Positions 12,511 through 40,370 of a DNA stretch of 64,000 nt are shown piece by piece. The notes under the pieces are model-generated. The model saw only the letters and a program-made list of their open reading frames with translations, did no database searches and was not told the DNA's origin. The translations under genes were made by a program, and so were the position numbers. The first letter of the stretch is position 1. The number at the start of each line of letters is the position of its first letter. Origin of the DNA: Thermoplasmata archaeon (GTDB lineage: Archaea > Thermoplasmatota > Thermoplasmata > RBG-16-68-12 > JAGMCJ01); assembly GCA_023136265.1 (NCBI GenBank), contig JAGLRN010000025.1, positions 1-64,000 of the forward strand, written 5' to 3'.

Positions 12511-15500
12511 TCACGGAAAGGGACCCAGAACAGTATCCACTTCGCGTTCCAGCAGATTGAGCTGGTGTTCATCGAGTGTCGAAGGATTGACAGATATCAG
12601 GAGAATGGACCTGTTGATGGCGACCTGGTCGCGAAGGGATTGGATGAGTCGCAGGACGGTTATGAAGTTGTTGTTCGTAATCAGGTATTCGATGCCGTCG
12701 AGGAGCACGACGCCGGATTTCTTCGTGATGAACTGCTCGAGGGAAAGGCTCAGTTTCTCCAAGTCCTTGGGGCGGACCGAGTCCTCTTTCCCAACATTGC
12801 TTAGCCAGAGTATGGGAACATCTTCAAGGCCGTATGCCTCCCTCACTTTGTCAGGGAAAACGCGAGTGACGCAGAAGCCAGGTTTCCCTTTCTGGATGCT
12901 CTTCAGGAGCATTCTGAATGTGTACTCTGACCTCTCTTCCTTGACGAGATATGTGAAGGCGTCACTTAGATCGGGGACCTCGGCCTCTGCGACTGTGGGT
13001 TCAGGTTCCTCAACCTTGACTTCTGGTTTCCCTGTCACAGGTTCGGGTTCTTCGGCGGTCTCCTCGACCGGTTCCTCGACTGCCCCCTCAACCTCCTCGG
13101 GAGCCTCGGGAGCAAGCTCTTCGGGGACTTCAGCCTCAACCGGGGGAGCTTTCTCCGGCTCCTCCTCGGCGGGGACCAGCGATGTTCCGCACCGTCGGCA
13201 CACGGTCGCCTCAGCCTCGACCTTCGTCCCGCAGAGCGGACAAACATGCTCGACTTTGCCGAAGTGGTCAGCGAGAAGGAATGCAAGGCTCTCGCGTATG
13301 CCCTCGACCTGCCGTATCTCTTCGAGGTCGGCACCAGCGAGTCTGTCATAGTCGTATCCTTTCGAGAGCAGCCACTCCGCATTCTCCGCAGAGACTCCCC
13401 CGATGCGCGTGAGGGTGTCGATCTTGTCCTTAATTACTGTTGCTGCCGCAGCCTCCATGAGCTGGGCCCCACAGTGCTCGCATATGATGGCTTCCGCCGA
13501 AACCTCGTTCTTACACTCCGGGCAGATGTGCTTATCTTCTTCGACAGACTCCCCGCACCGCGGGCAGACCGTCGTTCCCGTGGACAGGTCTATGTCGCAG
13601 AAGGGACAGACGAAAGCGCGGTAGGCCCTTTCCTCGGGAGAGAGAGATAGGAAGTTTTCAATCCTCCTAACATCGAGCTCATCTATTCCCTCGATCTCCC
13701 CGAGTTCTCCACTCGTGGCCTGTTCCAGAGAGGCGAGGCTATTGTACCCTGCATCATACATGAGCACCGCTTTCTTTTCATTGATACCTGGAATCTGTGT
13801 GAATGTGATTAACGCCTCCTTCATGTAGAGAGGCGTGATACCGATGGTGACCACCTCTCCCTCGATGTTCCATTCGACGACGTACTCTTCGTCGACATCT
13901 ACCTTCGAGAGATGCATATCTCTTGACCTTGTCTCAGTTGCTATGAATTCCTTCCATTTGGCTATCAGTCTCAGCAGTTCCTCTCTTCCCTTTATTTTGG
14001 TGCTCACGAAATCCTCGACATCGAGGTCAATCTCTTTCCTCATCTCCTGGATTCTCCGGATGGTCTCGCGGGCGAACCCTTCGCCCTTGATTTCCGGAGT
14101 GATTTCCATATCAACAAATATCTCACCCTTGTCGTGGACCACGCTCATGACGTTCTTGGGCAGCTTCATTCCGATCTCGACCATGCTCGGGTCAATCCGG
14201 ATCACATGGCCTTCTATTCCAAGCACGTATTGACCTTTCTTTATCTCTTTGGCGACGGTCTCGGCAGGTCGGCTCTCAATGAGGGTCGCAATCTTGCTGG
14301 ACCACTGCTTGTAGGCCTTTCCGATCGCGGCTTCCTTCGGTCGGATCTGGAGAACGTAGTCATCGAAGTCTTGACCTGGCTGCAGAATGTCCAACTCCTT
14401 GCAGTTGGTCTGATTCGCGAATACGTCACGAAGGACGTCGAAAGCCTTGTATGCGGAAGCGTCAGCTGGCTTCACCGTGATCTTTCTCACCGGCCAGCGG
14501 AGTTTGAGTCCCTGTTTCTGCCTGACCTTCAGCACGACCTCAACGATTCTCTGGATTACCTCCATCTGATCCTCAAGCTCGGAATCGATTCGCGACTCGT
14601 CAGCCTCTGGCCAGTCGCACATGTGAACCGTCAGTTTCGTTCCATCCAAGTTCTGGTAAATGGCCTCCGCGATGTGCGGGGTAATCGGCGCCAATATCCT
14701 CGCGGTTGTAGTGAGGCATTCGTGAAGGACCTTGTAGGCAGAAAGCTTGCTTTTATCCTCTTCTTCAAGCCATGTCCGGCTCCTGATCAGTCTGACGTAC
14801 CATCTGGACAGGCTGTTCAATATGAAGTCCTCGACCTCACGGCAAGCCTTGTGGATGTTGTAGTTCTCGAGTTCCTCCTCTGTGAGGATCTTGACCTTCT
14901 CCAGTCTCGAGAGTATCCATCGATCCTCGGGTCTCATGTGATCGGAGAGCTCGTCCAGGGACCACTTTCCAGGGTCGAAATCATCTATGGCCATGTAGGT
15001 GGATGCGAACCTCTGAACATTCCAAAGTATGTTCAGCGTCCTCTTGGCGTTCTTCACCTCATCCATCTGGAAGCTTATATCCTCCCAAGGGGCGCTGGTT
15101 CTGAGAAGATAGAATCTCAGAGCATCGGCGCCGAACTCATTGACTATTCCGGAAGGTTCTATCGTATTCCCCCGACTCTTGGACATGGGCAGGCCTTCGG
15201 AATCGTTCAACCAACCGTGCACAAGGACAGACTCGTAAGGCGCCCTGTCGAACGCTATCACTCCAGCCCCCAGCTGTGAATAGAACCAGCCTCTCGTCTG
15301 GTCGGGCGCCTCCGTAATCCATCTCGCCGGCCACCATCTCTTGAATCCGTCTCTTCTCCCAGGATATCCTAGCTGTGCCCATGAGCAGACTCCCGAGTCG
15401 AACCAGACATCGAGAATGTCGGTAATCCTGTGCATTTTCTTCTTGCAGGCTGGGCAAGTGAACACAACCACATCAATGGAAGGTCTGTGAAGGTCCATTC

Positions 15501-16983
15501 CCTCGACATAGTTCTCCCCTTCCCTCAGTTCCGAGGAGGATCCGACGACGGTCATCTCCCCGCACTCGCACTCCCAAATCGGAAGAGGGATGCCCCAATA
15601 TCTCTGTCTCGAGATGCACCAGTCCCTTGCGTTCTGCACCCAGTCGTATTGTCTCGAAGCTCCCGCCCATTCGGGCGTCCAGTGGATCTTGTCCACCTCC
15701 TTGAGCATCTTGTCTTTGAGCCCCTTCACCTTCAGGAACCACTGTTCCGTGACGCGGTATATGATCGGTGTCTGGCATCTCCAACAGTGCCCGTATCTGT
15801 GTGTGATCTCCTCTTCGTTGAAAAGGGCCCCTGAGGCCTTCAGATCATCGATTATCTTTCGATTGGCTTCCCTGACATGCATAGTCCTGTAGTCCCCGGC
15901 GTCCGTTGTGAAGTATCCCCTCTCATCCACTGGACAGAACGCCGGAAGGTCATGCTGCACGCCGATGTCGAAATCCTCAGGACCGTGGCCGGGGGCCATG
16001 TGGACAATTCCGGTGAACTCCTCCGCAACTATGTCGGATGCCAGAACCTTGTGGACCCAGTTTCCCCGTATCTCATCCAGATAAGGCACATTGCTGGACA
16101 ACGGATGCTTGTATTCAAGGCCGACGAGTTCCTTGCCAGGCACAGTCTCCTTCACGTCGTAGTTCAGGACCTCCGGTGTGTCCATCACCTGCTCGACGCT
16201 TCCCTCGTAGAGCCATACGTATCGGCGGCTGCCTTCCTGGGTGACCAGCACCTTCACGTAGTTCAGATTAGGATGAACGGCCGCGGCCAGATTGGCGGGA
16301 AGCGTCCACGGCGTCGTCGTCCAGACGAGGATGTACTCGTCCTCGCGATCGACCAGCGGGAACATCACGTAGAGCGAAGGGTCGGTCTCGTCGAAGTACT
16401 CGATCTCGGCCTCCGCAAGGGCCGTCTCGCACCTCGGGCACCATTGAAGAACCCTCTGGGCCTGGTCAAGCAGTCCCTTCTCGTGGGCTTTCTTTATCGT
16501 CCACCACGCGCCTTCCATGTAGGAATTCTCGATCGTTCTATAGGGATTGTCCCAGTCCATCCAGACACCCAGTTCCTCGAACTGCTGGGTCATCTTCTCC
16601 TGGAACTGAAGAGCGAAATCCTTGCAGGTCTCCACGAACTTCTTGATTCCCAGCTCCTCAATCTGCTTCTTGTTCATGATGCCAAGAGAACGCTCGACCT
16701 GGACCTCGATCGGCAGGCCGTGCATGTCAAAGCCAGGCTGGTCCCTGACATTGTATCCATGCATGCGCCTGAAGCGGATGAATAGGTCCTTTATTATCTT
16801 GTTCCAGGCGGTTCCAAGGTGCGCGGACTCCGTTGTGTAAGGAGGTCCGTCCAAGAAGAAGTAGTCCTCGCCTTCCCTTCTGCTCTGTATGGTCTTTTCA
16901 TACGCCTTGGATCTCTTCCAAAAGTCCCTTACCCTCTTCTCAATCTCATATGGGCTATATTCTTTTTCGGCTTGCTTTATCAT
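12511..16983 (-). CDS. ileS: Isoleucyl-tRNA synthetase with C-terminal HhH / zinc-ribbon / DUF835-like extension
   Basis: GPPYTTESAHLGTAWNKIIKD (HIGH-type), MSKSRGNTIEP (KMSKS); C-term CPFC…CPRCGES…CPECKNE…CEHCGAQ and DUF835-like tail. Confidence 0.96.
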   Translation of the reverse strand: MIKQAEKEYSPYEIEKRVRDFWKRSKAYEKTIQSRREGEDYFFLDGPPYTTESAHLGTAWNKIIKDLFIRFRRMHGYNVRDQPGFDMHGLPIEVQVERSLGIMNKKQIEELGIKKFVETCKDFALQFQEKMTQQFEELGVWMDWDNPYRTIENSYMEGAWWTIKKAHEKGLLDQAQRVLQWCPRCETALAEAEIEYFDETDPSLYVMFPLVDREDEYILVWTTTPWTLPANLAAAVHPNLNYVKVLVTQEGSRRYVWLYEGSVEQVMDTPEVLNYDVKETVPGKELVGLEYKHPLSSNVPYLDEIRGNWVHKVLASDIVAEEFTGIVHMAPGHGPEDFDIGVQHDLPAFCPVDERGYFTTDAGDYRTMHVREANRKIIDDLKASGALFNEEEITHRYGHCWRCQTPIIYRVTEQWFLKVKGLKDKMLKEVDKIHWTPEWAGASRQYDWVQNARDWCISRQRYWGIPLPIWECECGEMTVVGSSSELREGENYVEGMDLHRPSIDVVVFTCPACKKKMHRITDILDVWFDSGVCSWAQLGYPGRRDGFKRWWPARWITEAPDQTRGWFYSQLGAGVIAFDRAPYESVLVHGWLNDSEGLPMSKSRGNTIEPSGIVNEFGADALRFYLLRTSAPWEDISFQMDEVKNAKRTLNILWNVQRFASTYMAIDDFDPGKWSLDELSDHMRPEDRWILSRLEKVKILTEEELENYNIHKACREVEDFILNSLSRWYVRLIRSRTWLEEEDKSKLSAYKVLHECLTTTARILAPITPHIAEAIYQNLDGTKLTVHMCDWPEADESRIDSELEDQMEVIQRIVEVVLKVRQKQGLKLRWPVRKITVKPADASAYKAFDVLRDVFANQTNCKELDILQPGQDFDDYVLQIRPKEAAIGKAYKQWSSKIATLIESRPAETVAKEIKKGQYVLGIEGHVIRIDPSMVEIGMKLPKNVMSVVHDKGEIFVDMEITPEIKGEGFARETIRRIQEMRKEIDLDVEDFVSTKIKGREELLRLIAKWKEFIATETRSRDMHLSKVDVDEEYVVEWNIEGEVVTIGITPLYMKEALITFTQIPGINEKKAVLMYDAGYNSLASLEQATSGELGEIEGIDELDVRRIENFLSLSPEERAYRAFVCPFCDIDLSTGTTVCPRCGESVEEDKHICPECKNEVSAEAIICEHCGAQLMEAAAATVIKDKIDTLTRIGGVSAENAEWLLSKGYDYDRLAGADLEEIRQVEGIRESLAFLLADHFGKVEHVCPLCGTKVEAEATVCRRCGTSLVPAEEEPEKAPPVEAEVPEELAPEAPEEVEGAVEEPVEETAEEPEPVTGKPEVKVEEPEPTVAEAEVPDLSDAFTYLVKEERSEYTFRMLLKSIQKGKPGFCVTRVFPDKVREAYGLEDVPILWLSNVGKEDSVRPKDLEKLSLSLEQFITKKSGVVLLDGIEYLITNNNFITVLRLIQSLRDQVAINRSILLISVNPSTLDEHQLNLLEREVDTVLGPFP

Positions 16984-17094: not shown

Positions 17095-17199
17095 GGCCGG
17101 GACCGAGAATTCCAGAGCCTCAGCCATCTCTGAGGTTCGTTTGAACTCGGGACAAGGGATCCACAGTCCCTGAGGATAACCAGGCTACCCCACCCCGGC
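17095..17199 (-). tRNA. tRNA-His (anticodon GTG) with a 31-nt intron in the T-loop (17109-17139)
   Basis: GCCGGGG/TCCCGGC acceptor, C73 with genomic G at -1 (17200), AGGGA-CTGTGGA-TCCCT anticodon arm, CCGAG/CTCGG T-stem interrupted in its loop by a BHB-forming insert. Confidence 0.88.
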
Positions 17200-17239
17200 C
17201 ACTCAGCGTTTGATATATCACCTCAGATAAAGACTTTCC

Positions 17240-20200
17240 TCAGGCGGGACTTCCCGCTTCTTGCGATTGCCTCAAGGAAATCATGAATGTCTCGTCAGCG
17301 ACCTGCCATTCTATTGTGTATCCATCCTCGCCTTCTATGTTCTCTTTGGTCACGAAATCGAGGCTCTTCGAATTCGTCTCTCGAGCGATTCTATCTTTCT
17401 GAGACTCAAGCTCCGCAAGGAGATCCTCATTCGCGGATATCTTCACTTCGACACGCTGCTCGTCTTCGAGATTCATGTCGCTCCTCATTTCCAGTATTCT
17501 TCCCACTATCTCGGTTGTGATGGACAGCTCATCCGCTCCGTCGGCCTCGGCTCCTTCTGCCAACCCGGAGGATGGTGTAGAATCGTCTGCTTCTGCGGTT
17601 TGGGGGAAACTGACGTACAGGGATCCGCCACTGAACTTCCGTCTCACGACGTTGTCTGGCAACAGAATCTCGAAGGAAACCATGCTTGGGCTGATCTCCA
17701 CGCTCTGCCCCTCGATTCCCAGGAAGTACGCGCCCTTGTCAAGCCCTCTCTTGATCTTCCAGGCCGACTGGGATTTGAGCAGCGTCTCAATCTTCCTGGC
17801 CCAGAACCTGTATTTCCCCAGGATCATGTCCAAGTGGGGGATGGCCTCAATCTTGAGCCCGTCCCATTCATCGCCCACGGGGACTGTTTCCAATCCCCTT
17901 ATGTTGGCTTCGCCCTTGATCACTCTCTCAAAAGTCTCCACCGTTTCCCTGATTTCTTGAGTGTCTGGAAGCACGGCAACGAGAACGGGAACGTCCGAAT
18001 CCACTACCTTCTCAGACCGAGCCGTCTCGACCGCACTAGTGATCCCGTTTATAAGGGCCAGGTAGTCCCTGAGCTTCTCCTCGTCATCCAGCTCTCCGAC
18101 TTCGGATTTGAGGATTTCCACGCTGAGCGCAGAGAAGGCTTCGTCCCGGGTCATGCCGGGAGGCATCTCTCCCTCCTCCCCCTCTGCCGTTGGTATTGAC
18201 TCAGCCACCTTCTTCCAGATGTCCTCGTAACCCATTTCCTCTATTTCCTTCGTTATGTCGGAGATGAGCTTTTCGGCTTCGTCCCTGGCGAGAGCGGGCT
18301 CGGGGGTTCTTCCAAGACCGAAAGCTCTGGATATCACACTGTCATCGAGAGCGCCGAGCTCTGCACCCGGGAACTCACTCATGAAGAGTAGCCTCCTTAC
18401 GATCTCTCGGATTCCCTCCAGTCCTTCCATGCTCCCGTTCCAATCGAGGAGGACCCCACCGTAGGTCCCCTCTATCTCCTTCAGAATCTCGATTATGTAG
18501 AGCGACAGCAACCTGGGTTCATCTCCCATGACGACGGCGGCAAGGTGGACGGACTTCCCTCTCTCTACTAGGACCTTGCTCTCTCCGAAGTCGAGTTTGG
18601 AAAGACCGGTGCTTCCCTGCTGTGAGAAGGAGTCCTTCACGAAGCTCTGAACCGCCCCGATCATGGTGCTGAACTTCTTCTCGTTCAGGTCTTCCCTGTA
18701 CTTCCTGGATTCGCGTACGACCAGGTTGCCCTGATTGTGTATCAGGAAGACATCCTCAACGAGATATGTTCCGGCATTCTCGACATTCAAGTTCTCTTGG
18801 GCATATGTCTCGTAGTTCTTGTCGTCAAAGGGACGCCTGTAGGATATGCTTGCATCGATCGGTATTTCACCCGACTTTTTGGGCTTTATGCCCACATCGA
18901 GGTGCTTCTTCTCGTTGACATCCATTTCGGATATGGGTTCAAGACCCTTCACTTCGAAGTCACCGTCGAGCCTGACCTCAACATCCTTTGCTCCCAGGTT
19001 TCCTCTGTTCTCAACTTCGACACGATACCGGTTCCACGCATCCTCCTGGAACCCTTTCTTCGGCAGACGGACATGGAGCCTGGGCCTCTTGTCCTTCAGG
19101 AACTCATCGATCTTCTCTCCGGCAGAGCTCTCGACTGCCATGATGATGCGCTCCAGCTCGTCCAGATTCCCTTCATCTAGAATGGACCGAGCGTCGGACG
19201 TCAGTTGCGTTTCTTCTTCAACGCCCAGACCTGCTTCCTTCGCCCTGTTCACCAGAGTAACGATTTCACTGAGGCGTTTTTCGGCCTCGGCGAGGAGAAG
19301 CTTCTTCTTGATTTCCTCAACAGGGGATTCGAGCCGCTCGAGGTAAGCCTCCATCTTGTCAATGTCGTCCGATTCGAGTACTTTCCTTGCATCCACCATG
19401 AGGCCATTGGCCTCGGTAACGTCGAAGCCGACCTCACGGGCTTTGGCCACAATGGAGGTCAGTGAATCTACTCTCCTTTCGATCTCGCCCTTCCAGCGCT
19501 TGTTCCTCGACTTCTCAACAACTCCTCCTACGGAGGCGAGTAGGCTTGAGACCTCATCGACATCGGAAGACTGGTAGGACGATTCAGCAGACCTGAGAAG
19601 ACGCTCGGCCTCGAAGACATCGAGACCTTCCTGCTTAGCTGCCTCCACAAGGAGTCTTGCTTCGCGCATATTCTTCTCGGATTCGAGTCTCTCGATTTCC
19701 AAGCCGCCCCTGCTTATGATGTCCTTTATCCTGTCGATAATAGACGTGATTGTCGCAAACTGCCCGGTGTTAATCGCCTGCGTGGCTATCTCAAACAGCT
19801 CCTCTGCTTCATTCATCCTTATTCCAAGCTCATTGGCCTTGTCGACTATTTCCTTGGCAGCTGCAAGCTGGTCCTCCACCATTGCTATGTATTGGACTCT
19901 CGCCGAATTGGCGCTGTCCTCCGCCTCTCGAACGAGATCCCAGGCATTCTTCCAGTCTTGCTTGTCCATGTTTTCCATAGCGTCCTGAATCAGTATCTCG
20001 GCCTCTGTGATGTCGGCTCCCGCTTTCTTCGCCTCCTCAATGGCGCCAATAGTCTGGACAACCCTGCTCTTTTCCAGTCCGACGAGGTCGGCGCCAGCGG
20101 CGTCGGAGACGTACATCAGTCTCCTGATAATTTCATCTACCCCCTCGAGCTCCGTGAGCAGGCCACTCCAGTTCTCCAGGACATCACTGTAATGCCCTTC

Positions 20201-22936
20201 AATCTCGCCTATTATCTCGACCATGTGAAGCGGCAGGAAGACGGGTTCGTCTCCCGCCACAACGCAGGCGAGGTACACGTGAGACCCTCTCTCGATGACG
20301 ATCATACTGTTCCCGAAATCGAGCCTTTTAAGCCCTCCTTCACTTCTCGTCCTGAAGGAATCCTTGACGAATTCCTGCACAATGGTAAGCATGCCGGAGA
20401 AGATGTCCTCATCGATGTCCTCGCGGTACTTCCTAGTTTCATGTCCTATGAGCCTCCCATCGAGGTGGACTAGGAAGACATCCTCCACCACATACGTCCC
20501 GTAGGACTTGATGGAGAGCTGTTTCGTCTCGTCGTGGCCGAAGACCTGATTATCGAAGGGCCTCTGGTACGAGACAGACATGTCGACAGGGAGATCTCCT
20601 TCTTTCTTGGGTTTGACTCCCACCTCTATAGTCTTCGTCTCATTGGGATCTATCTCCGAGATTGTCTCTAGACCCCTGACTTCGAAATCACCTTCGAGTT
20701 TGATGTCGATGTTCTCGGACCTGAGGTTACCCTCGTTGATTATCTCCAGAATCAGGCGGTTCCATACGTCCGCCTCGAATCCCTTCGTAGGCATGTTGAC
20801 AAATACCTTTGGATATTTGTCTTTGATGAAATCCTGAATCTTCTTTCCGGCTGACACCTCCGCTCTCCGAATAAGGTCCTTCGCCTGTACGATTTCCTGC
20901 TTCCCCAAGTACTCGTCTGCCATGCCAAGGAGCGCCTGCGCGTGTTCGATGTCGATGCCCATCGCCTTGGCTCCTGCAATCATCGTGGCTATACCCTGGC
21001 TCTTGGCTCCGAACCGCTCAATGATCTTCTCCTTCTCGGCCTCCCCCACTATGTCCCGAATCCTTCTGGAAAGCTCCATGACGGCGTCGTAATTCTCTTC
21101 GAAGAGGGCATCTCTTGCATCTTTCAGGAGGTCATTCGCATCTGAGACATCGGCCCCCATTCTCTCAATATCATCGATTGCGAACGATGCGCCCTCCAGT
21201 TCGTCCTGAGCCTTCGTGATGATATACAACCTCTTTGCCTTCTTGGCGGAGAGTTCAACTTTTGGAACGTAGGCCTCGATCTTCTGGAATTCCCCCCTCT
21301 CGAAGTCGGCGGACGCCTTGCGGTAGAAGGTTTCCGCTTCATCTACCTCCAGACCCAGCTTCTTCGAGTCGGTGATCATCACTTCCATTCTGAGAAGGCC
21401 GCCCTTTGCCAGGTCAACGACTCTCTCCTTCTTCGCCCTGTCAACGAGATTCCGCGCAATCTCAGCGTACTGGAGTGCTTCGTCGATATGGCCCTCCTCA
21501 AGAGCTCTGAGTCCGTTCCTAACCGTTTCTCCTGCGGCTCCGATGTTGAGGTTCTCTTTTCTGGCCTCTTCTGCCTCCTTCTTGGCCTTTTGCAGGAGGT
21601 CCCTTGCAGCGACCGTGAGGGACTCCTTCAGACTCAGCGCCATCTCTTCGATTTCCGAGAGTATCTTCTCGGCCTTGGCCAGGTCTCTTACCTGGAAGGC
21701 CTGTTTCACTTCCTCGAATAAGTCCTCGACATAGGAGATGTCGACTCCGACCTTTCGAATCTCGTCAACGATCTCCTTGATGTCCCCCAGTCTTTTCGAC
21801 GCACCGAGCATTTGGATGGGAATGTCCTCATCCGTGGCTCCGAGTTTCCTCTTCTCCTTCGTGAGCCAGATTCTAAGTTGAGACAGGTATCTGCGAGCGC
21901 GCCTATTGTCGCCCTTCTCCAGAGCTTCGCGCGCTTTCTCGGCTATGCCATCGGCCCGCGTTATGTCAACCTCGATTGACTTGATGTACTCGATCTCCTG
22001 GCACATCGATTTGAGAGCGCTCTCGATTTCATTCCGGCGCGTCGCGCGATCCGCCTGTTTCCGAGCCTCCTTCGTCAGAGCCTTCACGTCATCGAATTCC
22101 CGCTTATGGAGAGCGGTCTCGGCCTGGCGGAGAGTCTCCTCGATTTCGCCAGTGTCCGCCCCTGTAGCCCTGGACGAATGCAGGGATTCCTCCGCTTTTT
22201 CGATGAGGTCGGAGGCTCTTTTGAACCGCTTGACCTCGTTGACCTCGGTGCGGGCTAGCTTCAGATATTCCTGGACTTCCCCATAGACAGCCCTTTCAAA
22301 GGACTCCTCGGCGCTCCTGAAGTATTCTCTGGCGACATCGATGTCTGCCCCGATTTCGTAGGCATAGTCGAGTTTTGGCTTGAAGTTCTGAATCATCACG
22401 CGGGCTCTTCTATTCCTCTTCGCCTCTGTGGCTTGCTTCTTTGCCTTCCTCACGAACTCGACGACATCACCGTAGATGCCGCTTTCGAGAGCGATGTACG
22501 CCTTCTTGATGAGGTCGTGAGCTGTCGTGATGTCGGCACCGAGCTCTCGAGCCTTGTCGACGATGAGCTCGGCATTGAGAATCATGAGCTCTTTTTTCCT
22601 TTTCTCATTGGCCTCTCTTGACTTCCGAAGAAGGATCTTCGCCTTCCCCTCCGCCTCCTCGAAGTTCTCCTCTGACGCTATCCTTCTCACGTGGTCCAGA
22701 GCCACCTGTATGCTGGCGATCTCTGCACCGCTCTTCTTGGCGGACCTCAATGCTTTTTCCACGCTGGAGATGAGCACCAGGACTCGCTTTTTCGCTGTGA
22801 CGGCTCCAGTTTCTCTTCGAGGAACCTTCTCCTTCCCCGTCTCTGTGAGGGAATGACCGCAGTAGTTGCAGAATCTGCTACCCGCTTCCAGCTTCGCCTC
22901 GCAACGGGGACATCCTATCCTCTTCTCGTCTCCCAT
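17240..22936 (-). CDS. 1898-aa helical/coiled-coil repeat protein: N-term zinc ribbon, repeated helical modules, two CARDB-like + longin/roadblock-like modules, C-terminal IleRS-tail-like domain
   Basis: CPRCEAKLEAGSRFCNYCG; repeated 'AKELGADI…A…LL..A' units; duplicated WNR…EGDFEVRGLETISEIDPNETK…VEDVFLVH blocks; C-term KGAYFLGIEGQSVEISPSM. Confidence 0.85.
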   Translation of the reverse strand: MGDEKRIGCPRCEAKLEAGSRFCNYCGHSLTETGKEKVPRRETGAVTAKKRVLVLISSVEKALRSAKKSGAEIASIQVALDHVRRIASEENFEEAEGKAKILLRKSREANEKRKKELMILNAELIVDKARELGADITTAHDLIKKAYIALESGIYGDVVEFVRKAKKQATEAKRNRRARVMIQNFKPKLDYAYEIGADIDVAREYFRSAEESFERAVYGEVQEYLKLARTEVNEVKRFKRASDLIEKAEESLHSSRATGADTGEIEETLRQAETALHKREFDDVKALTKEARKQADRATRRNEIESALKSMCQEIEYIKSIEVDITRADGIAEKAREALEKGDNRRARRYLSQLRIWLTKEKRKLGATDEDIPIQMLGASKRLGDIKEIVDEIRKVGVDISYVEDLFEEVKQAFQVRDLAKAEKILSEIEEMALSLKESLTVAARDLLQKAKKEAEEARKENLNIGAAGETVRNGLRALEEGHIDEALQYAEIARNLVDRAKKERVVDLAKGGLLRMEVMITDSKKLGLEVDEAETFYRKASADFERGEFQKIEAYVPKVELSAKKAKRLYIITKAQDELEGASFAIDDIERMGADVSDANDLLKDARDALFEENYDAVMELSRRIRDIVGEAEKEKIIERFGAKSQGIATMIAGAKAMGIDIEHAQALLGMADEYLGKQEIVQAKDLIRRAEVSAGKKIQDFIKDKYPKVFVNMPTKGFEADVWNRLILEIINEGNLRSENIDIKLEGDFEVRGLETISEIDPNETKTIEVGVKPKKEGDLPVDMSVSYQRPFDNQVFGHDETKQLSIKSYGTYVVEDVFLVHLDGRLIGHETRKYREDIDEDIFSGMLTIVQEFVKDSFRTRSEGGLKRLDFGNSMIVIERGSHVYLACVVAGDEPVFLPLHMVEIIGEIEGHYSDVLENWSGLLTELEGVDEIIRRLMYVSDAAGADLVGLEKSRVVQTIGAIEEAKKAGADITEAEILIQDAMENMDKQDWKNAWDLVREAEDSANSARVQYIAMVEDQLAAAKEIVDKANELGIRMNEAEELFEIATQAINTGQFATITSIIDRIKDIISRGGLEIERLESEKNMREARLLVEAAKQEGLDVFEAERLLRSAESSYQSSDVDEVSSLLASVGGVVEKSRNKRWKGEIERRVDSLTSIVAKAREVGFDVTEANGLMVDARKVLESDDIDKMEAYLERLESPVEEIKKKLLLAEAEKRLSEIVTLVNRAKEAGLGVEEETQLTSDARSILDEGNLDELERIIMAVESSAGEKIDEFLKDKRPRLHVRLPKKGFQEDAWNRYRVEVENRGNLGAKDVEVRLDGDFEVKGLEPISEMDVNEKKHLDVGIKPKKSGEIPIDASISYRRPFDDKNYETYAQENLNVENAGTYLVEDVFLIHNQGNLVVRESRKYREDLNEKKFSTMIGAVQSFVKDSFSQQGSTGLSKLDFGESKVLVERGKSVHLAAVVMGDEPRLLSLYIIEILKEIEGTYGGVLLDWNGSMEGLEGIREIVRRLLFMSEFPGAELGALDDSVISRAFGLGRTPEPALARDEAEKLISDITKEIEEMGYEDIWKKVAESIPTAEGEEGEMPPGMTRDEAFSALSVEILKSEVGELDDEEKLRDYLALINGITSAVETARSEKVVDSDVPVLVAVLPDTQEIRETVETFERVIKGEANIRGLETVPVGDEWDGLKIEAIPHLDMILGKYRFWARKIETLLKSQSAWKIKRGLDKGAYFLGIEGQSVEISPSMVSFEILLPDNVVRRKFSGGSLYVSFPQTAEADDSTPSSGLAEGAEADGADELSITTEIVGRILEMRSDMNLEDEQRVEVKISANEDLLAELESQKDRIARETNSKSLDFVTKENIEGEDGYTIEWQVADETFMISLRQSQEAGSPA

Positions 22937-37878: not shown

Positions 37879-38472
37879 GTGTTCGGAAAGACCCGAGGAA
37901 TGAGCATTGGGGGAATCCCTTTGAAAAAGAAGATGAAGATGAAGATATGCATGGTCGGCGAAGGTGCAGTTGGAAAGACCAGCCTGATTCGAAGGTTCGT
38001 TCTCGATGAGTTCGACGACAAGTATCTCCAGACCCTGGGGACCAAGGTCTCCAAGAAGGAAATCGTTGTGGACGTCAAGGAAAAGGATGTGGAGCTTCAG
38101 ATCGACATGACGATATGGGACATAATGGGTCAGAAAGGATTCCGAGAACTCCTGAAGGAAGCGTATTTCTACGGAGCCAAAGGCGTAATCGCGGTCTGTG
38201 ATATGACCCGTAAGGACACGCTTTCCGAGCTGGACGACTGGATCGAGGGAGTCTACAGCGTGACCGGGAGGGTTCCGATAGAGTTCCTCGCGAACAAGGT
38301 TGATCTGAAAGATGATGTGGCCATCGACGAGAATGACCTAGAACAGGCAAGCCGGGCCTACGACTCAAGGTTCTTCTACACGAGCGCCAAGACCGGTGAG
38401 AACGTAGAGGACGCGTTCAAGGAGCTGGCCGAAAAGATATCCCGCACGAAGCTGGGAGAGCTCGAGGACTAG
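37879..38472 (+). CDS. Ras-like small GTPase 1 (GTG start, or ATG at 37900)
   Basis: GEGAVGKTSLIRR; TIWDIMGQKGFRELLKEAYFYGAKG; NKVDLKD; TSAKTGENVEDAF. Confidence 0.92.
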   Translation: MFGKTRGMSIGGIPLKKKMKMKICMVGEGAVGKTSLIRRFVLDEFDDKYLQTLGTKVSKKEIVVDVKEKDVELQIDMTIWDIMGQKGFRELLKEAYFYGAKGVIAVCDMTRKDTLSELDDWIEGVYSVTGRVPIEFLANKVDLKDDVAIDENDLEQASRAYDSRFFYTSAKTGENVEDAFKELAEKISRTKLGELED

Positions 38473-38553
38473 TATCAACGCTGATAATCTCGTAGAAACC
38501 TATATCTGAGAACTTCCGTCTTTTTCAACCGCATCCATAGGGGATGGTGACAG

Positions 38554-39102
38554 ATGTTCGAAAGTAGCGACACCATGAAAATGAAGATATGCTTGGTGGG
38601 CGAGGGAGCGGTCGGCAAGACGAGCCTCATCAGGAAATATGTGCTCGATGAGTTTGATGACAGGTACATATCCACTCTGGGAGCGAAGATCACGAAGAAG
38701 GAACTGATGTTTGAATACCCAGACAATGGCGGCGAGCTTCGAATTGACATGACGATATGGGACATCATGGGAGAGAAGGGCTTCCGCGAACTGCTCAAAG
38801 AAGCGTATTTCCACGGTGCACAGGGGGTCCTCGCGGTCTGCGATGTTACAAGGAAGAACACTCTACCTGAACTAGAAAGCTGGATAGCCGCTATCGAGAC
38901 TGTCACCGGAAAGATACCTATCCGGTTCCTGGCCAACAAGGCGGACCTAAAGGACCAACTCACATTCACTGAGAGTGAATTACGCGAAATGAGTGCCAAG
39001 TATCAGTCTGCCTACCTTTTCACAAGCGCCAAGACGGGCGACAATGTGGACAAGGCCTTCATCGAGATTGCCGACGCAATCGCGAAGAGAAAGGTCGCCT
39101 AG
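38554..39102 (+). CDS. Ras-like small GTPase 2
   Basis: GEGAVGKTSLIRKYVLDEFDDRYISTLGAKITKKEL; WDIMGEKGFRELLKEAYFHGAQG; NKADLKD; TSAKTGDNVD. Confidence 0.92.
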   Translation: MFESSDTMKMKICLVGEGAVGKTSLIRKYVLDEFDDRYISTLGAKITKKELMFEYPDNGGELRIDMTIWDIMGEKGFRELLKEAYFHGAQGVLAVCDVTRKNTLPELESWIAAIETVTGKIPIRFLANKADLKDQLTFTESELREMSAKYQSAYLFTSAKTGDNVDKAFIEIADAIAKRKVA

Positions 39103-39195
39103 TCTGAGAATACAGACTGATAATCAACATTGATAGCCGTACAAGAAGTGCTATTTATCGTGCGGATTATTCGTAGAGGCGAAGGAGGCACCAAA

Positions 39196-39744
39196 ATGAG
39201 TGACGTCAGAAACATCAAGATGAAGGTCTGTCTCATTGGAGAGTTTGCCGTCGGCAAGACGAGTCTGATACAGAGATATGTCTACGACACTTTCAGTGAT
39301 AGGTACATACAGACGATTGGTGCGAAGATCACGAAAAAGGCCCTATTGCTCCAATATCCTGAGCGGAACACGAATCTTGATGTCGACCTAACGCTTTGGG
39401 ACATCATGGGGGAGAAGGGGTTCCGAGAGCTCCTCAAAGAGGCGTACTTCTACGGCGCCCAGGGTCTCTTGGCGGTTTGCGATATGACAAGGGAAGACAC
39501 GTACTACGAACTCCCCACGTGGATCAGCGCTGTAGAGAGAATAGCAGGATCCGTTCCCATTGTCTTCTTGGGAAACAAGGTGGATCTCACGGAGTCCAAG
39601 ACCGTAGAGGAAAACGACATGAAGATGATCGGAGATTCCTACGACTCGTCATATCTTCTGACAAGCGCGAGAACGGGAAGGAACGTGGAGACCGCATTCA
39701 TGAGAATCGCAGACAAAATCGCGGGAAAGGATGTCCTTGCATAG
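39196..39744 (+). CDS. Ras-like small GTPase 3
   Basis: GEFAVGKTSLIQRYVYDTFSDRYIQTIGAKITKKALL; WDIMGEKGFRELLKEAYFYGAQG; NKVDLT; TSARTGRNVE. Confidence 0.92.
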   Translation: MSDVRNIKMKVCLIGEFAVGKTSLIQRYVYDTFSDRYIQTIGAKITKKALLLQYPERNTNLDVDLTLWDIMGEKGFRELLKEAYFYGAQGLLAVCDMTREDTYYELPTWISAVERIAGSVPIVFLGNKVDLTESKTVEENDMKMIGDSYDSSYLLTSARTGRNVETAFMRIADKIAGKDVLA

Positions 39745-39785
39745 GCTTCATTCTCAATCTCGATAATTGCGGGGTAGGGTTCTTA

Positions 39786-40370
39786 ATGGCGTCTTCAGAT
39801 GTGTTTCCTGCAATGTCTCTGGAATCGAAGGACCTCGAGATAGTGAAGACGAAGATCTGCCTTGTCGGAGAGGCGGCAGTAGGCAAGACCAGCCTGATTC
39901 GGAGGTATGTCCTTGACATGTTCGAGGATCTCTACATAGCTACGCTGGGAGCCAAGGTAACGAAGAAAGGCTTGCTGCTCCCGAAGCTCGATGGCGGCAA
40001 CGACATTAAGGTCAACCTGATGATCTGGGACATCATGGGAGAGAAGGGGTTCCGAGAACTCCTCAAGGAAGCTTACTTCCATGGAGCTCAGGGCATACTG
40101 GCAGTCTGTGATGTCACCCGAAAGGACACGCTCCTGGAACTGAAGAACTGGATCGACTCGGTCACCAAGGTCACCGGCGAAGTCCCCGTAAGGTTCGTTG
40201 CCAACAAGATCGACTTGAAGGATGAGGCGCAGTTCGGAGAGGACGATGTGAGGGAGCTGAGCGAGGAAATAGGTTCATCCTACCTCATGACCAGTGCAAT
40301 GACTGGAGACGGAGTGGAGCAAGTTTTCGAGGAGATCGCGAGACTCATCGTGAAGAACATTGAGAGATAA
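39786..40370 (+). CDS. Ras-like small GTPase 4
   Basis: GEAAVGKTSLIRRYVLDMFEDLYIATLGAKVTKKGLL; WDIMGEKGFRELLKEAYFHGAQG; NKIDLKD; TSAMTGDGVE. Confidence 0.92.
   Translation: MASSDVFPAMSLESKDLEIVKTKICLVGEAAVGKTSLIRRYVLDMFEDLYIATLGAKVTKKGLLLPKLDGGNDIKVNLMIWDIMGEKGFRELLKEAYFHGAQGILAVCDVTRKDTLLELKNWIDSVTKVTGEVPVRFVANKIDLKDEAQFGEDDVRELSEEIGSSYLMTSAMTGDGVEQVFEEIARLIVKNIER

Follow-up and report, generated by a model that had tools for sequence, protein, structure and literature searches.

A giant protein ending in an IleRS C-terminal domain

A giant protein of 1,898 residues, encoded on the minus strand at 17240..22936 of a 64,000-nucleotide stretch of a Thermoplasmata archaeon (contig JAGLRN010000025.1; the window), ends in a tail that is homologous to the C-terminal domain of isoleucyl-tRNA synthetase (IleRS). 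The tail has a single old origin, occupies a conserved place in a shared architecture, has exchanged the residues invariant in IleRS for an invariant set of its own, and is under purifying selection. The explanation that we favour, with a probability of roughly 60%, is that the giant is a GTPase-linked scaffold of the Thermoplasmata whose IleRS-derived tail has been retooled for a new partner, probably a protein.

The relationship is evident at several levels. BLASTP aligns residues 1619-1888 of the giant with residues 800-1049 of the IleRS encoded next to it at 28% identity (E 7e-22), and the Pfam family DUF5915 (PF19302) matches the last 336 residues of the giant with 28.4 bits (cut-off 27) and the window IleRS with 87 bits. 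When a profile of 25 giant tails is aligned with one of 22 IleRS C-terminal domains (hhalign), the probability is 100 and the E-value 2.5e-75 over 258 columns; the initial annotation, which had proposed both the homology and the recruitment of a synthetase tail domain into a non-synthetase protein, had named this comparison beforehand as the one on which the proposal could fail, and both parts of it stand. Searched against solved structures, the tail profile matches solely isoleucine-tRNA ligases, whereas the tail as a single sequence finds no matches in the PDB, a profile being needed to find any. An AlphaFold2 model of the tail has pLDDT 82.1 and pTM 0.53. In Foldseek its six matches with E < 0.001 are exclusively IleRS (Priestia type 2 and yeast), and their TM-scores are low (0.29-0.38 by query), probably because the placement of the subdomains differs. 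By sequence profile and predicted fold the tail is an IleRS C-terminal domain.

The tail spans residues 1611-1896 (17249..18106, minus strand), with its core matched by DUF5915, so the 17240-17940 interval initially assigned to it was in the right region and the homology reaches farther at the 5' end. The homologous length is approximately 285 residues and runs along the whole domain. The likeness to the C-terminal domain of type 2, archaeal and eukaryotic IleRS lies in the fold and in the 258 alignable columns, from the last helix of the anticodon bundle to the final beta strands. We found no paper on DUF5915 in the open-licence literature. Among Pfam and NCBIfam models neither tRNA-synt_1 nor ileS matches the giant, which hence lacks a recognisable class I catalytic domain bearing HIGH and KMSKS motifs; no NCBIfam model matches it at all.

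The gene, defined by its open reading frame and orthologues, encodes in order a zinc ribbon, helical repeats, a CARDB domain, a longin-like domain, further helical repeats, a second CARDB domain, a second longin-like domain, a linker and the tail, all coordinates being on the minus strand. At the N-terminus, residues 9-30 (22847..22912; CPRC...CNYC) match Pfam Zn_Ribbon_1 with 25.2 bits at a cut-off of 25; this zinc ribbon is followed by the helical array at about residues 70-706 (20819..22729), recognised from a repeat spacing of 60-66 residues (motif distances 63, 63, 63, 61 ... 60, 66, 66). The first CARDB-like Ig domain (residues 707-808; 20513..20818) is by sequence a copy of the second (residues 1283-1384; 18785..19088), in which Pfam CARDB matches residues 1292-1365 with an E-value of 8.7e-7; the two orthologues L109 and L111 have two CARDB matches each, backing the first assignment. 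The first longin/roadblock-like domain (residues 811-945; 20102..20506) was recognised with AlphaFold2 and Foldseek, and the second (residues 1386-1523; 18368..18781) is 53% identical to it. The initial description of a giant coiled-coil protein is incomplete: helical repeats dominate the N-terminal 650 or so residues, and the description leaves out the zinc ribbon and the two CARDB and two longin/roadblock-like domains.

A search of 200 genomes of the class included 24 from the window's order, of which 22 have a tailed giant; the two without one are 81-85% complete. Every genome of the order with enough sequence has two longin-like domains followed by the IleRS tail at the extreme C-terminus. 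Families of the compared genomes are labelled here by f-numbers, f1 being that of the window; beyond the order, tailed giants occur in f13, f17 and f20 and share the layout of longin-like copies followed by a C-terminal IleRS tail, with three longin-like copies in f20. A scan of 85,488 species genomes with tail-specific peptides, which may miss distant tails, found 32 loci, all in genomes titled Thermoplasmata, Thermoplasmatota, Methanomassiliicoccales or Euryarchaeota, and a search of 199 genomes of the phylum yielded no further match scoring as high as a giant tail. An assembly artefact of a single metagenome-assembled genome is ruled out, since more than 25 genomes, obtained in different studies, share the architecture. 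One f20 genome (G060) also encodes a further longin-like protein, which carries SAP domains and an IleRS tail of reduced length (L112:6503-10036, minus strand).

Origin of the tail and its neighbourhood

A tree of 86 C-terminal domains unites all 32 Thermoplasmata giant tails in one clade (support 100/98), which does not lie beside the neighbouring IleRS. The clade persists (99/97) in a second tree from which the long-branch IleRS rows were dropped as a guard against attraction, and again (99/97) when outgroups from other classes are included, in which case it is nested inside the clade of Thermoplasmata IleRS of the DUF835 type (98/97). Two constrained topologies were rejected by the approximately unbiased test: grouping the f1 tails with the f1 IleRS, as expected of a local duplication in that family, costs 71 log-likelihood units (p-AU 5e-7), and placing the duplication in the common ancestor of f1 and f2 costs 83 (p-AU 5e-70). 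A topology that unites the tails and their own order's IleRS in a single clade is disfavoured yet not rejected (p-AU 0.061). These trees place the acquisition of the tail in one old capture from an IleRS of this class. The tail had initially been described as a paralogue of the neighbouring gene, with a phylogeny suggested to date the duplication; the origin proves to be single and old, and the copying was not local.

An early ancestor from which several Thermoplasmata families descend would have gained one copy of the IleRS C-terminal domain at the C-terminus of the giant, the captured piece probably extending from the end of the anticodon-binding helical bundle through the end of DUF5915.

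The neighbouring ileS gene (12511..16983, minus strand; TIGR00392 953 bits, and Pfam) encodes an IleRS of 1,490 residues with intact HLGT and MSKS motifs, the C-terminal domain at residues 792-1056, and HhH, zinc ribbons and DUF835 beyond it. It lies on the same strand as the giant gene with a tRNA-His gene in between, as initially noted, and 256 bp separate the two. This tRNA gene (GTG anticodon; minus strand; approximately 17095..17205) carries a 31-nt intron in its T-loop that orthologues upstream of ileS in sister families lack. ARAGORN and Rfam reported no tRNA in the window; the one in the gap is hidden by the 31-nt insert. The intron has the same position, a similar length and an internal hairpin in f1 and f2 (L024-L027, L032, L035, L038 and L040), and the orthologues upstream of ileS in f3-f5 have none; the intron-bearing form is missed or misnamed by standard tRNA finders.

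The arrangement of giant, tRNA-His and ileS is confined to f1 and f2. The giant occurs without a neighbouring ileS in f3-f6, f17 and f20, and the adjacency is therefore no trace of the copying. Across the families the commoner neighbour of ileS is the upstream tRNA-His and not the giant.

Residue exchange in the tail, and the fold of the longin-like domains

Conservation was compared between 42 bona fide IleRS and 32 giant tails, using IleRS positions that are 93-100% conserved in IleRS. Fold positions are common to both groups (K897, I898, Y919, G922, E924, G925, M934, P942 and G953 in IleRS numbering). Other IleRS positions are scarcely kept in the tails: L828, R829 and G888 in 0%, Q822 and Q979 in 3%, R976 in 6%, R1019 in 9%, R972 in 12%, R977 and W1038 in 16%, P882 in 22% and N860 in 25%. 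The IleRS-invariant set of R829, N860, R972, R976, Q979, R1019 and W1038 is thus retained in 0-25% of tails as against 93-100% of IleRS; R972 and Q979 are also found in the aligned yeast and Priestia enzymes. The tails have invariant residues of their own, W1691, G1693 and K1727 in 100% and Q1723, W1726 and K1729 in 93-97%, with a signature SQxxWKIK that is held across 17 diverse tails. They are also more acidic than IleRS domains, with a mean net charge of -15.7 as compared with -8.5. The tail accordingly differs from its IleRS counterpart in its carrier, which is not a synthetase, in its charge and in its invariant set.

IleRS paralogues that lack KMSKS and coexist with a canonical IleRS served as a control. 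Their domains have decayed partly at the same sites (R829 kept in 67%, Q979 in 50%, R1019 in 42%), as expected if these sites serve aminoacylation. Between the window genome and three congeners the ratio of nonsynonymous to synonymous substitution rates (dN/dS) is 0.165-0.187 for the tail, with the IleRS domain at 0.07-0.09 and the helical parts of the giant at 0.15-0.20.

Because the IleRS-invariant residues have been lost, binding of RNA or tRNA by the tail is less likely, and judging from these alignments the tail has probably ceased to read the tRNA-Ile anticodon. The residue exchange therefore makes it most likely that the tail binds a different partner, probably a protein.

The 135-residue longin-like domain gives an AlphaFold2 model (pLDDT 87.6, pTM 0.84), for which Foldseek returns AP sigma, zeta-COP, Ragulator, the VAMP7 longin domain and MglB; 34 PDB matches have E <= 0.001, most of them proteins of the longin/roadblock fold. 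No longin/roadblock Pfam profile scores above its cut-off in the copies of the window. Proteins with this fold serve small GTPases as platforms. Ras-family GTPase matches number 7-20 in each genome of the order and 25-34 in those of f20; in G000 there are 16 such GTPases. In three single-contig genomes, a Ras-family gene is no more than 3 kb away from 9 of 31 longin-like copies outside the giant; random positions would give 1.06 (maximum 7 in 5,000 draws), under a null that does not model general gene clustering. A Ras-family GTPase gene directly adjoins the gene for the giant in both of the f17 genomes examined. Taken together, the fold, the gene neighbourhoods of the paralogues and the f17 adjacency suggest a GTPase-related role for the giant. 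The window itself has four consecutive Ras-family GTPase genes at 37879-40370 (plus strand), directly upstream of a LonB-like protease gene.

A putative GTPase-linked scaffold and its alternatives

We propose that the giant is a large, probably cytosolic scaffold in the small-GTPase system of the Thermoplasmata. Its two longin/roadblock-like domains would be platforms for GTPase docking or dimerisation, and its Ig-like and helical parts would act as spacers and docking surfaces. The tail would have kept the fold of the IleRS domain while swapping the IleRS-invariant residues for W1691, G1693, Q1723, W1726, K1727 and K1729, and could dock a different partner, probably a protein, at the end of the scaffold, with the tRNA-Ile anticodon presumably no longer read.

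Several observations weigh against this proposal. The longin-like domains were matched by fold, at modest scores (E 1e-4 to 1e-3), and Robl_LC7 is found in the orthologue L109 only, with 19.6 bits, below the cut-off of 23. The giant is not beside a GTPase gene in f1, f2, f20 and other families, the nearest being 23-175 kb away in the three single-contig genomes. R982 of the IleRS basic helix is kept in 91% of tails and K983 in 59%, so that the tail may still bind some nucleic acid. In one f20 genome (G050) the search for a tail beyond the third longin-like domain came up empty; either this genome, at the least, can do without it or its assembly is broken.

The alternative that survives best is that the tail still binds RNA, gripping tRNA-Ile, tRNA-His or another RNA and so linking the GTPase scaffold with translation or the supply of tRNA. 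The naming of the domain in PMC10485003 can be counted in its favour, as can the retained basic residues and the additional ones contributed by the invariant K1727 and K1729, but nearly all other IleRS-invariant positions are gone and the more acidic net charge points the other way; we regard it as unlikely.

Lower still in our estimation is the idea that the tail docks or dimerises with IleRS itself, placing the synthetase and its DUF835 domain on the GTPase scaffold, with the adjacency in f1 and f2 as a reflection of this. In an f21 genome a 306-residue zinc-ribbon protein with a longin-like domain is encoded directly upstream of an IleRS gene of the DUF835 type (L106:2322-3239, plus strand), which fits such docking, as does the gene order in f1 and f2. 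DUF835 and related additions, present on most Thermoplasmata IleRS and kept by catalytically dead paralogues, likewise hint at a second function. Yet the giant and ileS are apart in f3-f6, f17 and f20, and the widespread neighbour of ileS is tRNA-His.

The IleRS paralogues bear on this question. In most IleRS of the class the C-terminal end is made up of HhH, zinc ribbons and DUF835, the last of which is listed as an inactive KaiC-type domain (PMC5847659). In f9, f12, f15, f17, f19, f21, f26, f27 and f28 KMSKS has been lost from the form that bears the C-terminal domain, as has HIGH in six of these families, and the genomes carry a separate canonical IleRS elsewhere, of which G067 has only a part. 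DUF835 was not detected in the KMSKS-less copies of f9 and f27, and most others keep it. Because catalytic motifs have been lost while a canonical IleRS coexists, the extended IleRS appears to have a role beyond tRNA charging, and the KMSKS-less paralogues (at L104, L105-L108, L110, L119, L120, L122, L124, L128 and L132) are a possible family of pseudo-enzymes. One locus has an IleRS-like frame of 2,929 residues (L108:501-9287, minus strand) with the C-terminal domain at 802-1065 and DUF835 at 2789-2925; it lies outside the KMSKS alignment, and its f17 relatives L105 and L110 have lost the motif.

That the tail is a functionless relic of a fusion with a decayed second IleRS gene is very improbable: IleRS paralogues of this class do decay and the tail is seemingly lost in G050, but it is kept in at least four lineages and in all six families of the order, with a low dN/dS and an invariant signature of its own. 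A recent tandem duplication of the neighbouring ileS tail, suggested by the same-strand adjacency, has next to no chance of being correct given the single clade of all tails and the two rejected constraints.

The scaffold with a retooled tail remains our preferred explanation, and several known systems come close to it. The giant resembles longin/roadblock proteins such as MglB, Ragulator, AP sigma and VAMP7 in its predicted beta-beta-alpha-beta-beta-beta-alpha-alpha topology and its Foldseek matches; it differs in having tandem copies within approximately 1,900 residues together with CARDB domains and helical repeats, and in a sequence similarity that falls below Pfam cut-offs. Prokaryotic GTPases are reported to be coupled with MglB (PMC4316618) in the same kind of way, the likeness being that longin-like paralogues of the giant are encoded near Ras-family GTPases.

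The reuse of synthetase domains is itself already known, and what seems to be new is an IleRS C-terminal domain on a longin-type giant, for which we found no description in the open-licence literature. We know of no other case in which this domain alone has been joined to a giant with GTPase-platform domains. The review PMC9437257 describes synthetase-like proteins that arose when a synthetase or a part of one was duplicated (HisZ, a truncated GluRS-like enzyme, SbzA and C-Ala), and a search of it for IleRS brought up SbzA, an IleRS homologue, and IleRS2, with no IleRS C-terminal domain in a non-synthetase. The giant shares with these proteins the use of a synthetase-derived module outside aminoacylation, and differs in that only the C-terminal domain was taken and that it forms the far end of a giant putative scaffold.

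Set against a large number of true IleRS, with the decaying paralogues for a control, the residue exchange gives an indication of the positions through which this domain serves the enzyme. The pairing of a longin-type scaffold with a synthetase domain in uncultured Thermoplasmata points to an archaeal small-GTPase system, maybe one tied to translation. It is conceivable, though we consider it a long shot, that a GTPase scaffold which senses or organises translation through its IleRS-derived tail forms an IleRS-based signalling system together with the non-catalytic paralogues into which the lineage has turned whole IleRS enzymes carrying DUF835; such a system would bear a loose likeness to eukaryotic amino-acid signalling by Ragulator/Rag GTPases and synthetases.
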